DNA of 64,000 nucleotides from Candidatus Nitrosotenuis cloacae (GTDB taxonomy: Archaea; Thermoproteota; Nitrososphaeria; Nitrososphaerales; Nitrosopumilaceae): the NCBI RefSeq assembly GCF_026768455.1, contig NZ_JAPPVQ010000013.1, forward strand, positions 62,001 through 126,000, written 5' to 3'. The notes under the pieces were generated by a model. That model was not told the origin of the DNA and searched no databases. It saw only the letters and a list, made by a program, of their open reading frames with translations. This document shows positions 36,971 through 41,438 of the stretch, piece after piece. The position numbers and the translations under genes were made by a program. Position 1 is the stretch's first letter. Each line of letters opens with the position of its first letter.

Positions 36971-37270
36971 GTGGAAGTCGACAAGGCCAAGATAGCAGAG
37001 AACCTCTTTGATCCGGACGTGTCCGTGATCCTAGCAGAGCTTGAGCACGGCCCAAAGGAGTCAAAAAAACTGGCAGAAGACCTTGCCATATCTGAGGACG
37101 AGATAAAAAGCAGACTCGGGTTTCTCATCGGTGCGGAATTTGTACTGGTATCGGAATCACCGCTGTCGTATTCCGTGGATGCGTCCAAGATCTCGCAGGT
37201 AATGGAAAACGATGAGAACTACAAAAACGTAGTCGACGGACTGACCGAGCTTGACAGCTATCTCAACTAG
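36971..37270 (+). CDS. 99-residue winged-helix-like protein
   Basis: Starts at GTG 36971, 5 bases after the VWA gene. The pattern VSVILAELEHGPKESKKLAEDLAISEDEIKSRLGFLIGAEFVLVSE is a winged helix: a 'gene-off' helix, the helix-turn-helix, and a wing. The C-terminal helix (YKNVVDGLTELDSYL) could dimerise. It may regulate the MoxR-VWA operon it ends, or serve as a protein-interaction wHTH. Its stop overlaps the convergent membrane protein by 8 bases. Confidence 0.65.
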   Translation: MEVDKAKIAENLFDPDVSVILAELEHGPKESKKLAEDLAISEDEIKSRLGFLIGAEFVLVSESPLSYSVDASKISQVMENDENYKNVVDGLTELDSYLN

Positions 37271-37757
37271 ACCTTCTGGTCTTTACGGCATAGATTATCG
37301 CAATTACGACTCCGACAAACCCTGACACGATGGTTGCCTGCCCGAGTATGTTCAGCGCAACTATTGCCTTGTCTGGCATGTGTGACATCGCAATTATTGC
37401 CGGCACCTCACCTGAGCTCTCCAGCACAAGCTTGTATTCGCCGCTTGTGGTGATCTCAAACTCCTCCTCTGTCGACTTTTCCGTTATCTCCTTTGAGACT
37501 ATCTCCTGGCCTGTAGGATCCAAAACCCTTGCAACTGGCAAGTTTCCGACTGCCTCCGTGTGCACTACGAACACGCCAGTGCCTGCAACTGCCGGGTCTA
37601 GCGCCTTTACCACCTCTAGCGGTGCAGCCTGGCTTGACGTTCCCTCCACCACGGAGACACCCTGCGTTACAAGATACGAACCAAAGAACGAAAGCAGCAT
37701 TCCTGCGGCTACAAGCCCGCCTGAAATGAAAAGTATGATGTGTGGTCTTTTCATCAA
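37263..37757 (-). CDS. two-span membrane protein with external domain (164 aa)
   Basis: An N-terminal helix (IILFISGGLVAAGMLLSFFGSYLV) and a C-terminal helix (ILGQATIVSGFVGVVIAIIYAV) flank an outside beta-rich domain of about 85 residues (VFVVHTEAVGNLPVARVLDP, FEITTSGEYKLVLESSG), ending KTRRSS inside. The domain resembles emp24/GOLD or carbohydrate-binding beta sandwiches in style only. It is divergent from the multicopper oxidase, so the operators at 37806-37840 could regulate both. Confidence 0.7.
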   Translation of the reverse strand: MMKRPHIILFISGGLVAAGMLLSFFGSYLVTQGVSVVEGTSSQAAPLEVVKALDPAVAGTGVFVVHTEAVGNLPVARVLDPTGQEIVSKEITEKSTEEEFEITTSGEYKLVLESSGEVPAIIAMSHMPDKAIVALNILGQATIVSGFVGVVIAIIYAVKTRRSS

Positions 37758-37805
37758 TGTACAACCTTTGGAGGCTCTATATGTGGTTTGCAGCGTGGGA
37801 TGAAA

Positions 37806-37850
37806 AGTTAGCCTAGGCTAACTTTCTTAGCATGGGCTAACTTTTAAATA
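37806..37850. promoter_or_regulatory. paired DtxR-like operators plus TATA box before the oxidase/ZIP operon
   Basis: Operator 1 is an 18-base perfect palindrome, AGTTAGCCTAGGCTAACT (37806-37823). Operator 2, TTAGCATGGGCTAA (37827-37840), matches its core TTAGCCTAGGCTAA at 12 of 14 positions. Centres are 19 bases apart, so two dimers would bind the same helix face approximately. TTTTAAATA (37842-37850) follows at once and is 28-36 bases before the oxidase start. The half-sites resemble DtxR/IdeR boxes (TTAGGnnAGnCTAnnCTAA). A repressor bound here would block TBP/TFB. Confidence 0.75.
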
Positions 37851-37877
37851 AACAAACCGACTATCAATATTTAGAAA

Positions 37878-38915
37878 TTGCATCATTTCTCAAAAATGGT
37901 ATTTGCCCTAGCTATAACTGCGATCTTTGCCGCATTTTATTTTGCCTACCCCGGACTGTCCGATGCAAAGCCCGAGGAAAAGGCGTTCGTTACACACAAC
38001 GGCGCGGTGATGCGAACCACCGGCGAGGTGCTGGACCCGATATACACGTCGCAGACAGTAGAGTTTGATCCCGACAAGTACCTGCGCCAGTTCAACTACG
38101 GCCGAGTCTCAGCACTTCCTGACGGCAAGGTGCTGCGTGAGTTTACAATAATTGCAGAAGATGACAAGATGATGGAGGTCTCACCGGGAGTGTTTTACAA
38201 CGTGTGGACCTTTAATGGAACGGTGCCCGGGCCCACAATACGGGCAACCGAGGGGGACGTGGTCAGAATCAAGTTCATCAACAACGGATCAAAATCACAC
38301 ACGATGCACTTTCACGGAATCCACGAAGCAGAGATGGACGGCGTATTTGAGATAGTCGGCTCCAAGGGGCAGTTCACGTACGAGTTTGAGGCGCTGCCAG
38401 TCGGCGTTCACCCGTATCACTGTCATGTGATGCCGCTTGAGGAGCACATAGTACACGGACTGTACGGAGTGTACATAGTGGACCCAAAGGAGGGAAGACC
38501 ACCCGCGGATGAAATGGTGATGGTACTGAACGGATTTGACACCGACTTTGACACCGAGAACAACTTTTACGCGGCAAACTCTATTCCGTTCTACTATCAG
38601 CACCATCCAATCCAGATCAATGTGGACGAACTGATCCGTGTGTATGTGGTAAACATGGTCGAGTTTGACCCGATAAACAACCTTCATCTGCACGGAAACC
38701 TGTACCATTACTATCCGACCGGCACTGACACCGTGCCTTCGACGTACACTGACATGATAACTCTGTCACAGACTGAGCGGGGAATAATGGAGTTCAAGTA
38801 CGACTATCCTGGCAAGTACCTGTTTCATGCGCACAAAGTAGAGTTCTCAGAGAAGGGATGGGTAGGCCTGTTCCTAGTAAAGGGCGACTCTGAGGAGACA
38901 GAATATGGAAATTAG
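37878..38915 (+). CDS. two-domain multicopper oxidase, exported
   Basis: 345 residues from TTG 37878 (or ATG 37896). An N-terminal signal (VFALAITAIFAAFYFAYPG) leads to two cupredoxin domains. Domain 1 has MHFHGIHE (HxHG), then HPYHCHVMPLEEHIVHGLYG: the HCH pair, a T1 His, and Leu where an axial Met often stands. Domain 2 has NNLHLHGN and FHAHKVEF without a T1 Cys. Thus T1 copper is only in domain 1 and the trinuclear/T2 ligands come from both, a type-C-like layout that works as a trimer. Substrate may be Cu(I), Fe(II), Mn(II) or nitrite. It overlaps the ZIP gene by 11 bases. Confidence 0.88.
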   Translation: MHHFSKMVFALAITAIFAAFYFAYPGLSDAKPEEKAFVTHNGAVMRTTGEVLDPIYTSQTVEFDPDKYLRQFNYGRVSALPDGKVLREFTIIAEDDKMMEVSPGVFYNVWTFNGTVPGPTIRATEGDVVRIKFINNGSKSHTMHFHGIHEAEMDGVFEIVGSKGQFTYEFEALPVGVHPYHCHVMPLEEHIVHGLYGVYIVDPKEGRPPADEMVMVLNGFDTDFDTENNFYAANSIPFYYQHHPIQINVDELIRVYVVNMVEFDPINNLHLHGNLYHYYPTGTDTVPSTYTDMITLSQTERGIMEFKYDYPGKYLFHAHKVEFSEKGWVGLFLVKGDSEETEYGN

Positions 38916-40080
38916 CAAGACATCCAAGGCAAAACTTGTGGCAAGCGGAGTAATCCCGTTTGCATTTCTGGTAATTATGATTGCATACATCTTTGGCCCA
39001 GGTGCGGACCTGCTGGGCCTTGGTGTGGCACTGCCTGAGATCACAATAGAAAAGGTGGACTTTGTCGGCCCTGAGATAGTCGTAACAGTGCGCAACACGG
39101 GACCAATCCCAGTAGAGGTCGTGATGGCAGACGTAAACGACAGGATACAGCCTGCAGCAATAGAGCCTGACAGGTTCCTGGAGCGATTCGAATCGGCAAC
39201 CGTGAGAATACCATTTGATTGGAACGTGGCAGAGCCGTATATTGTCGGGCTGACAGTCGGCGACGGGACCCGTTTTGAAAAAGAGATAGCGGCCGCAGCA
39301 CCGGCTCTTGTCCCAAACATCGAGCTTGCATCATTCTTTGCAGTAATTGGGACGTATGTTGGAATCATTCCAGTTATGATAGGACTGCTCTGGCTTCCGT
39401 TCATCAAGAGGATAAGCAAGAACAAATATCATTTTTTCCTGGCACTTACCGCAGGGCTGCTCCTGTTCCTTGGAATCGACTCCATCGAGGAGGCACTCGA
39501 GGTATCAAAGGAAAGCCTTGCCGGAAGCTTCAACCCGGTGCTGCTAGTCGCAACTGTCACGGTACTGTCGTTTTTGGGACTGTACTATTCGGCAGAAAAG
39601 CTGACAAAGCGGGCAGAGTCGTCAAAGATGACCAAGCCCGTGGCAATAGGACTGATGATAGCAATAGGAATCGGCCTGCACAATTTCGGCGAGGGCCTTG
39701 CAATAGGGGCGGCAATAGGACTTGGCTCGATTGCATTTAGCACCTTTCTAATAGTGGGCTTTGCGCTCCACAACACGACTGAGGGAATCGCAATCGCAGC
39801 CCCGCTGTCTCGCGGCAAGCTGATGGTGGGAAAGCTTGCAGCACTTGGGATGATTGCGGGGGCTCCTGCGATATTTGGCGCATGGGTGGGCGGGTTTGTC
39901 TACTCGCCGTTTACCTCAGTGGTGTTTCTGTCAGTGGGAGCAGGCGCAATATTTCAGGTAATCGTAATAATATTGAAGTGGATCCGAGAGGAGGGCGACA
40001 GGAACCTTTCAAGCGCTGCAGTGGCGTCCGGGTTTGCAGTAGGTATGGTGGTGATGTACCTTACAAGCATACTGATCTAA
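38905..40080 (+). CDS. ZIP-family metal transporter with extracytoplasmic N-domain
   Basis: 391 residues. One N-terminal helix (GVIPFAFLVIMIAYIFG) is followed by a beta-rich outside domain of about 100 residues (ITIEKVDFVGPEIVVTVRNTG...). About eight helices form the ZIP core. The metal-path signatures are IGLHNFGEGLAIGA and FALHNTTEGIAIAA (HNxxEG twice). ZIP proteins bring Zn2+, Fe2+ or Mn2+ inward. The outside domain is extra to plain ZIP and could take metal from the oxidase encoded by the overlapping upstream gene (inference). Confidence 0.9.
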   Translation: MEISKTSKAKLVASGVIPFAFLVIMIAYIFGPGADLLGLGVALPEITIEKVDFVGPEIVVTVRNTGPIPVEVVMADVNDRIQPAAIEPDRFLERFESATVRIPFDWNVAEPYIVGLTVGDGTRFEKEIAAAAPALVPNIELASFFAVIGTYVGIIPVMIGLLWLPFIKRISKNKYHFFLALTAGLLLFLGIDSIEEALEVSKESLAGSFNPVLLVATVTVLSFLGLYYSAEKLTKRAESSKMTKPVAIGLMIAIGIGLHNFGEGLAIGAAIGLGSIAFSTFLIVGFALHNTTEGIAIAAPLSRGKLMVGKLAALGMIAGAPAIFGAWVGGFVYSPFTSVVFLSVGAGAIFQVIVIILKWIREEGDRNLSSAAVASGFAVGMVVMYLTSILI

Positions 40081-41438
40081 AATGGCTCTGGGTGTATAGT
40101 TATGACGGAGTTTTTGAACCTGCCCCGTATGCTGTGCTCTATCTGAGATGTTATGTCGTGGACTCTCTCGATTGTAAGGCGGCGCTCAAAGGAGCAGTTG
40201 ATGTCTATTTTCTTGAGGTCCTCAAAGTTCAGCGTGACGATGCGCCCTATCTTCTTCACCTCGGGGTGTTCCTTTAGGATGGCAATTATCTCCTCGTCCG
40301 TAGTCTTTGGCTCGCTCTTCAAATCGGTTGGAATGGCAATGTGAGGCTCAAGGTGTATTGTGATGTTCTCAATTTCGGGCATCGCGCCGCGTATCTTGGA
40401 CTCTATTGCGTCCGCAAGATTGTGGGCGTCCTCCAGCGTCATCTGCCTGTCCACCATCACGTGCAGGCTGACAAACTTGTCCCCGCCTGCGGTATGGTGT
40501 GAGACGTTGTGGATTCCCTTGACTCCTGCCACGCCTGACGCAATGTCGTAAATCTTTGAGTCAAGCGGCACGTCCTTCCAGCTCGGCTCAAAGTGGACCG
40601 TTATCTCGGAGTTGGGGATGGACCTTTTGATGTTGTCCTCGACGTGACTGCTTATCTCGTGCGCCCTGTCAAAGCTCACGTCCGCCCTAAGAGATATTGT
40701 GACGTCCGCAAAGATGACGTCGCCTGACCTGCGCATCAGTACCTGGCCCACGTCGAGCACCCCTCCAGTCGATGTCGCAATCTCTCTTACCTTCCTTACC
40801 AATTCTGGCGAGATTATGTCGGTAAGCTCCTGCGCAGTCCTGTGTATCAACTTGAAACTCAAAACGCACAGCAAAATCCCAAGGACGAGTGCTGCTGCAA
40901 AGTCCGCGTCATGGACTCCTATGTTCGCAAGAACTATCCCTGCAATCACCACCAGCGTGGAGCCTAGGTCCAAAAATGCGTGGTAAAAGTCGGCCCTAAG
41001 CGTGCTGCCGCCTATTCTGTTGATTGTTTTTTTGAGCAAAACTATTCTGAAAACATCTATGCCTATCGTGTACACTGCGGCCACCAGCGCCAGCATGCCT
41101 GGAATAATCATCGGCTCTGTGCTCTGCATTCTGGTTATTGACTCGTAAATGAAAAACGCGGCGATCAGAAATATCGCAATTCCGCCAATCAGTCCTCCAA
41201 GCGACTCGACCTTTCCATGTCCGTACGTGTGCTCAGCGTCCGGCGGCTTGATTGCGTACCTTGCTGCAACCAGCAGAACCGCAGTCACCACGCTGTCCAA
41301 GAGCGCGTGCACGCTGTCGGTAAGCAGCGCAAGGCTGTTGGATGTTATCCCAAAGACGAACTCTACTGCAAACGCGGAAAGTATGGCGACAAGTGATATC
41401 TTTAGTACGTTGGTTCTCTGCGCAAACACATTCTGCAT
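40077..41438 (-). CDS. cation diffusion facilitator (CDF) exporter with three C-terminal domains
   Basis: 453 residues, about six membrane helices. Metal sites: LLTDSVHALLDS (HxxxD in TM2), HTYGHGKVESLGG loop, and ADFYHAFLDLGS (HxxxD in TM5). After the membrane part come three successive ferredoxin-like CDF domains, each with a pattern HxI-xxxIexxIr-xxxxxxITiHxEP: near residues 210-295 (ending VHFEPSW), 300-370 (IHLEPH) and 385-453 (IHPEPF). Normal CDFs have one. It exports Zn/Fe/Mn/Co. It converges on the ZIP importer with a 4-base overlap. Confidence 0.9.
   Translation of the reverse strand: MQNVFAQRTNVLKISLVAILSAFAVEFVFGITSNSLALLTDSVHALLDSVVTAVLLVAARYAIKPPDAEHTYGHGKVESLGGLIGGIAIFLIAAFFIYESITRMQSTEPMIIPGMLALVAAVYTIGIDVFRIVLLKKTINRIGGSTLRADFYHAFLDLGSTLVVIAGIVLANIGVHDADFAAALVLGILLCVLSFKLIHRTAQELTDIISPELVRKVREIATSTGGVLDVGQVLMRRSGDVIFADVTISLRADVSFDRAHEISSHVEDNIKRSIPNSEITVHFEPSWKDVPLDSKIYDIASGVAGVKGIHNVSHHTAGGDKFVSLHVMVDRQMTLEDAHNLADAIESKIRGAMPEIENITIHLEPHIAIPTDLKSEPKTTDEEIIAILKEHPEVKKIGRIVTLNFEDLKKIDINCSFERRLTIERVHDITSQIEHSIRGRFKNSVITIHPEPF

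Follow-up and report, generated by a model that had tools for sequence, protein, structure and literature searches.

Two tandem palindromic boxes in front of a multicopper oxidase–ZIP permease operon are probably an MntR-type operator that represses a divalent-metal importer, most likely one for Mn(II), judging from sequence comparisons among related genomes. The operon lies in a 64-kb stretch of DNA, analysed here as a whole and called the window, from a genome of 1.68 Mb in 18 contigs. The closest named relatives of the oxidase, MCO1, are found in Candidatus Nitrosotenuis and other Nitrosopumilaceae, and the window genome is therefore that of an ammonia-oxidising archaeon (AOA).

A two-domain multicopper oxidase overlaps a ZIP-fold permease gene

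The MCO1 gene (37896..38915, plus strand) encodes a two-domain multicopper oxidase with a signal peptide, in which PF07732 and PF07731 both score above cut-off; its start is ATG 37896 or TTG 37878 and its stop codon occupies 38913-38915. The nearest solved structures are 3gdc and 7rab, and the copper-ligand pattern HxH/HCH is invariant (12/12). The permease gene (38905..40080, plus strand) begins with ATG 38905 and overlaps the end of MCO1 by 11 nt, which bears out the overlap proposed in a sequence-only reading of this DNA. A ZIP gene lies 3' of MCO1 at 86/87 loci from the same family as the window genome and at 21/22 loci from other families, counting those with room for it. This pairing of a two-domain oxidase with a ZIP gene places the enzyme in the AOA MCO1 lineage, an assignment made from the gene pairing together with the descriptions in excerpts of the literature. 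We infer that the role of the operon is metal import.

The permease scores only 20.8-21.4 bits against PF02535, below the Pfam gathering score (cut-off 35.1), and its class was read from an AlphaFold model (pLDDT 86.5, about 90 in the beta-sandwich). In the model a single N-terminal transmembrane (TM) helix is followed by an outer beta-sandwich and then by the ZIP core. This core matches BbZIP in fold (VIA Z 20.0, rmsd 3.7 over 229 residues), the eight top hits of the structure comparison are all BbZIP chains, and both HNxxEG metal motifs are present in TM helices of the ZIPs listed. The extracytoplasmic sandwich (aa 43-131; 39031..39297, plus strand) follows the N-terminal helix and resembles FlaF, FlaG and archaellins, with a match to FlaF 4zbh at VIA Z 11.9 and rmsd 2.1 over 91 residues; in a 27-member alignment its invariant columns are spread throughout. 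FlaF of the archaellum binds the S-layer. The modelled sandwich is possibly a docking domain for the S-layer or for MCO1 and, more speculatively, it may anchor the importer beneath the S-layer beside MCO1.

Two further genes flank the operon. A cation-efflux gene of the CDF type (40077..41438, minus strand; PF01545, PF16916, TIGR01297) is convergent with the ZIP gene, overlaps it by 4 nt at the 3' end and encodes an exporter with HxxxD in two helices. It recurs next to many MCO1–ZIP loci, an importer–exporter neighbourhood that does not imply membership of the regulon. On the other side, a gene for a small membrane protein without a Pfam match (37263..37757, minus strand) is divergent from MCO1, and the operator lies in their common intergenic region.

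Tandem palindromes abut the promoter of the operon

Box 1 (37804..37825, unstranded) is a perfect 22-bp palindrome, AAAGTTAGCCTAGGCTAACTTT, with the 14-bp core TTAGCCTAGGCTAA at 37808-37821, and is the sole spacerless perfect palindrome of at least 18 bp in the whole 64-kb window. Box 2 (37827..37840, unstranded), TTAGCATGGGCTAA, matches the core at 12/14 positions and follows box 1 by exactly 19 bp. A TATA-like element, TTTAAATA (37843..37850, plus strand), begins 2 nt downstream of box 2, which would place box 2 over the position of the TFB-recognition element. The sequence-only reading had described a perfect palindrome of 18 bp, a second copy with a 12/14 core match and a TATA box directly behind them: the palindrome is indeed perfect but measures 22 bp, and both the second copy and the position before the TATA box hold. 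The iron operator of DtxR and IdeR is an interrupted palindrome of 19 bp, TTAGGTTAGSCTAACCTAA. Here a 14-bp even palindrome is instead repeated every 19 bp, with half-sites (TTAG..CTAA) like those of DtxR/IdeR boxes.

Taken alone, the window makes a weak case for the motif, with three occurrences against 1.5 expected at up to three mismatches. The decisive test was the comparison with relatives. We compared 129 distinct MCO1 loci with at least 260 nt of upstream sequence, 107 from the same family as the window genome and 22 from other families. A box with at most two mismatches stands upstream of MCO1 at 99/107 same-family loci (none in 50, one in 27, two in 22), as against 0.3% of shuffled upstreams and 0.1% of coding chunks (n=1040). 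The remaining 8/107 lack a box of this quality and have three (4 loci), four (2) or five (2) mismatches. A second box matching at 10/14 positions or better is found at exactly 19 bp in 81/107 same-family loci, compared with at most 6 of the 107 for any other spacing between 10 and 39 bp, and six loci have further boxes in the 19-bp phase. Beyond the family, 9/22 loci have a box with up to two mismatches and 14/22 one with up to three; a search of 24 other-family genomes with a box-plus-TATA pattern gave 14 matches, one each in 14 genomes, 13 of which belong to MCO1 by position. The TATA-like element starts 1-4 nt past the proximal box at 117/125 loci having a box with up to four mismatches. 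The double operator of the sequence-only reading is thus confirmed, and strengthened, by its conservation across relatives.

Two sets of loci depart from this arrangement. The divergent same-family loci L206, L207 and L208 have longer MCO1 frames and a box that is absent or has four mismatches, which suggests that the switch has been lost or that another promoter is used. Genome G195 has two MCO1 copies: the first is boxed, has no copy nearby of the published copper-limitation motif discussed below and, by its position, would correspond to NVIE_000600 of N. viennensis, and the second (L187) is without a box and has stop codons within the matched stretch.

Among the matches listed, nearly all the best boxes lie at MCO1

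A scan of the window genome at up to three mismatches found 14 places, against 81 for the same pattern read backwards. Within two mismatches, the only site besides the operator boxes is TTAGCATATGCTAA at C14:384097; it lies over the start codon of a gene for a small secreted-type protein, has no tandem box and was taken as a chance match. The genome scan that the sequence-only reading had proposed thus gives no second gene with a strong copy in this genome. A looser tandem pattern (three mismatches), run on 121 genomes, was swamped by chance matches, the controls mostly exceeding the pattern, and we claim no wider regulon.

Among the matches listed, distinct sites with at most one mismatch are nearly all at MCO1. 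The exceptions opened, again among the matches listed, are seven sites in genus g19 (TTAGCCTAGCCTAA and its mirror), single sites ahead of unrelated genes in G103 and in G079, and two sites where a contig stops; one of these, in G077, leads into a signal peptide like that of MCO1, and the other is on C136 of G094. In the seven g19 genomes the related site TTAGCCTAGCCTAA falls in the stretch that separates hemD from sufB, immediately ahead of the latter. The sufB gene is seen at L130 (site at about 2501-2514) and L165 (about 2001-2014), and the five other sites (L166-L170) were assigned to it from alike surrounding sequence. The second DtxR protein, which is IdeR-like and is described below, may use this site as an operator.

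The same boxes precede an MntH-type NRAMP in relatives that lack MCO1

A strong-type NRAMP (NRAMP-A, scoring about 360-412 bits and including a fragmented copy in G027) is present in 23/121 same-family genomes, and 22 of these 23 are without MCO1. The 71 near-complete genomes of the family (at least 95% complete, at most 5% contaminated) comprise 49 with MCO1 only, 18 with NRAMP-A only, none with both and four with neither; G041 and G077, in which a contig end truncates the MCO1 copy, are counted as MCO1-positive, and G105, whose only match is a 43% relative, is not. The Fisher test on this exclusion ignores phylogeny, and the pattern in part reflects phylogenetic clumping: two genera account for 19 of the 23 NRAMP-A genomes (g9, 14; g6, 5), with two more in g15 and one in g1. 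In g15 and g1 the swap occurs within the genus, where sister genomes have MCO1. The four near-complete genomes with neither system are G018, G056, G075 and G114, and neither MCO1–ZIP nor NRAMP-A is therefore indispensable.

We sampled 22 NRAMP-A loci, which represent 20 of the 23 genomes. Each has a box with no more than four mismatches before the gene (two mismatches in 11, three in 9, four in 2), and in 19/22 there is another box at 19 bp. The DPGN and MPH motifs are intact in all 22 proteins, and the two tested score 504 and 472 bits with the MntH model, above its cut-off of 430. Since the same boxes stand before MCO1–ZIP and before an MntH-type NRAMP, one type of operator and regulator appears to serve two exchangeable importers, one of them of the manganese kind. 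The window genome itself has no NRAMP match and a single ZIP match. An operator common to manganese-importer genes, the mark of an MntR regulon, is found in the relatives and not in the window genome; the expectation that the motif would be shared with other metal genes accordingly holds for the relatives, through the boxed NRAMP/MntH, and fails for the window genome, which has no second strong copy. NRAMPs carry divalent ions, and this one replaces the pair with no oxidase in the same operon, so that the transported ion need not be an oxidised one; that the pair may oxidise and then import a metal, as the sequence-only reading had it, gains no support here.

The linked regulator resembles MntR

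The search for DtxR-family genes, also suggested by the sequence-only reading, found two in the window genome, L011 and L012. The best PDB match of L011, the core gene, is B. subtilis MntR (E 7e-28), and the protein passes the NCBIfam MntR equivalog PRK03902 by a margin of only 0.1 bit (138.1 bits against a cut-off of 138). The metal ligands of B. subtilis MntR are numbered D8, E11, H77, E99, E102 and H103; their equivalents, read from an ungapped alignment to 1on1, are present in 36/36 MntR-like homologues (duplicates included). L012 is a SloR/ScaR/IdeR-like DtxR protein.

An MntR-like gene lies directly 5' of the boxes–MCO1–ZIP unit, on the same strand, at 11/106 same-family loci, in ten of them intact and in one as a decayed copy, and immediately 3' of ZIP at 8/21 other-family loci. 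At the 129 MCO1 loci no linked regulator is of the IdeR/DtxR type, an IdeR-like (L012-type) gene adjoining 0/129. The upstream copies form one clade (support 100/99), in a tree whose rooting is unreliable because the outgroup branch is very long; MntR thus became linked to the operon at least twice. The boxed NRAMP of G103 has an MntR-like gene running divergently from it. The decayed copy (L217, 942-1325 as oriented) has several stops and lies upstream of a perfect box and an intact MCO1, which suggests that its role can pass to the core MntR encoded at another place in that genome.

On these data the linked regulator is of the MntR (manganese) type and not of the DtxR/IdeR (iron) type. The interpretation in the sequence-only reading is therefore partly supported: the DtxR/IdeR-like character that it gave the boxes is right for the superfamily and wrong for the subfamily, and its proposal of a DtxR-superfamily operator placed to block an oxidase–permease promoter gains support at the sequence level from the two arrangements in which DtxR genes adjoin the operon and from the boxes on NRAMP/MntH.

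A model for metal-dependent repression

With the sensed metal, most likely Mn(II), in ample supply, MntR dimers carrying it would bind both boxes, 19 bp apart. Since the gap between the proximal box and the TATA-like element is so short at most loci, such dimers would cover the promoter: occupation of the TATA-adjacent box would keep TFB and TBP away, and MCO1–ZIP would be off. When the metal became scarce, the repressor would be released, the oxidase and the ZIP importer made, and the metal restored. We infer repression by the metal-bound protein, occlusion of the promoter and Mn(II) as both signal and cargo. MCO1 needs copper, and a shortage of copper would in this scheme reduce metal import and lead to derepression, which would explain a rise under copper limitation; in yeast, lack of copper starves the cell of iron. 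By this analogy we put forward, tentatively and as somewhat less than an even bet, that MCO1–ZIP is a copper-dependent manganese uptake system that replaces MntH and is induced through MntR at low manganese, its rise under copper limitation being secondary.

Discussion

The published view of the operon is that ZIP imports the Cu(II) which MCO1 forms by oxidising Cu(I), and that copper is the switch. MCO1 is itself a copper enzyme, and PMC7785015 and PMC12448741, in the portions available, argue for copper: under copper limitation the operon goes up in N. viennensis (MCO1 log2 0.81, permease log2 1.33; PMC7785015), and a rise is stated for N. maritimus (PMC12448741). The rise of MCO1 favours copper over the Mn(II) reading. 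It is, however, small beside that of MCO4 (log2 4.3 and 7.0 in the same portion of PMC7785015), the linked regulator is MntR-like and of no known copper-sensor type, and what takes over the function behind the same boxes is an NRAMP of the MntH type. The motif published for copper limitation in N. viennensis, TTCSGSMTTTGWACYANT, has no match in L186 at up to three mismatches, and its four matches in the window (2.4 expected) fit chance, one of them at 37132, about 670 bp from the boxes and within a coding region. A copper regulon marked by TTCSGSMTTTGWACYANT was rejected, with nothing above chance in L186 or the window, and we consider copper control of the operon quite unlikely.

A true Fet3-like case, with MCO1 a ferroxidase and a repressor that senses Fe(II), also seems unlikely to us, for all that it would suit several observations: the window genome has the second, SloR/ScaR/IdeR-like DtxR protein, the half-site is similar to DtxR/IdeR boxes, as noted above, and the related g19 site TTAGCCTAGCCTAA precedes an iron-sulphur gene, sufB. 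NRAMPs carry Fe(II) too and MntR-like proteins are not always manganese-specific, both of which weigh against manganese specificity. Nevertheless, IdeR-like genes adjoin 0/129 MCO1 loci, no member of the MntR ligand set is missing from the linked proteins, which have the D8 and E99 equivalents too, and the partner has the divalent-ion ZIP fold and is no FTR1. It is very improbable that a different regulator acts on the boxes and that the MntR genes are accidental neighbours. As many as 95/106 same-family loci have no adjacent upstream MntR-like gene, but linkage takes two gene orders in separate families and a third beside the boxed NRAMP of G103, and a DtxR-family gene is present in 119/121 same-family genomes (84/84 of the better ones).

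An MntR-type operator in front of a divalent-metal importer has its nearest counterparts in bacteria. As in the MntR regulon of B. subtilis and E. coli (mntH), the AOA regulator passes the MntR model with six ligands and the target in AOA without MCO1 is an MntH-type NRAMP; the AOA system differs in being archaeal, in its 19-bp-phased 14-bp palindromes abutting the TATA box and in its main target, the oxidase–ZIP pair, which is absent from the passages of the MntR literature compared. SloR of S. mutans (mntH and sloABC) is likewise a metal-dependent member of the DtxR superfamily with adjacent palindromes at a manganese-importer promoter, and the passages available describe cooperative repression from adjacent boxes at mntH and say that B. 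subtilis MntR binds cooperatively too (PMC12096823). The same passages give SloR a C-terminal FeoA domain and 6-6-6 elements (PMC12096823), unlike the AOA MntR, which is short (153 aa) and has a different box.

The gene pair and its order are identical to those of the published AOA MCO1–ZIP, which the excerpts available read as copper acquisition (PMC7785015, PMC12448741, PMC7819960). These excerpts mention no operator or DtxR/MntR regulator, and the available text of PMC7785015 has 0 occurrences of 'DtxR' and of 'palindrom'. The parallel with yeast Fet3-Ftr1 drawn in the sequence-only reading is already in print there, for copper (PMC7785015). The system is like Fet3-Ftr1 in pairing a multicopper oxidase with a permease; it differs in that the permease has the BbZIP fold and is not of the FTR1 family, and in its regulator and probably its metal. 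Kerou 2016 is said to treat the AOA pair as well. The likeliest precedent is work by Leyn and Rodionov in 2015, which reportedly gives a comparative prediction of archaeal FetR, MntR and ZntR palindromes with ZIP and NRAMP targets; that work aside, the titles and abstract openings searched contain no link between AOA or Thaumarchaeota and DtxR, MntR, manganese or NRAMP.

AOA rank with the most abundant nitrifiers, and explanations of their habitats draw on their metal needs. From sequence comparison, a pair thought to gather copper appears to stand behind a switch of the manganese-sensing type, and in relatives without the pair the switch would stand before a classic manganese importer. If MCO1–ZIP is an MntR-controlled importer of manganese (or of manganese and iron) that swaps with MntH, the copper-limitation data will need re-reading, and a link between copper and manganese in nitrification would become testable. 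The box would then also be a ready marker of which metal importer each lineage depends on.
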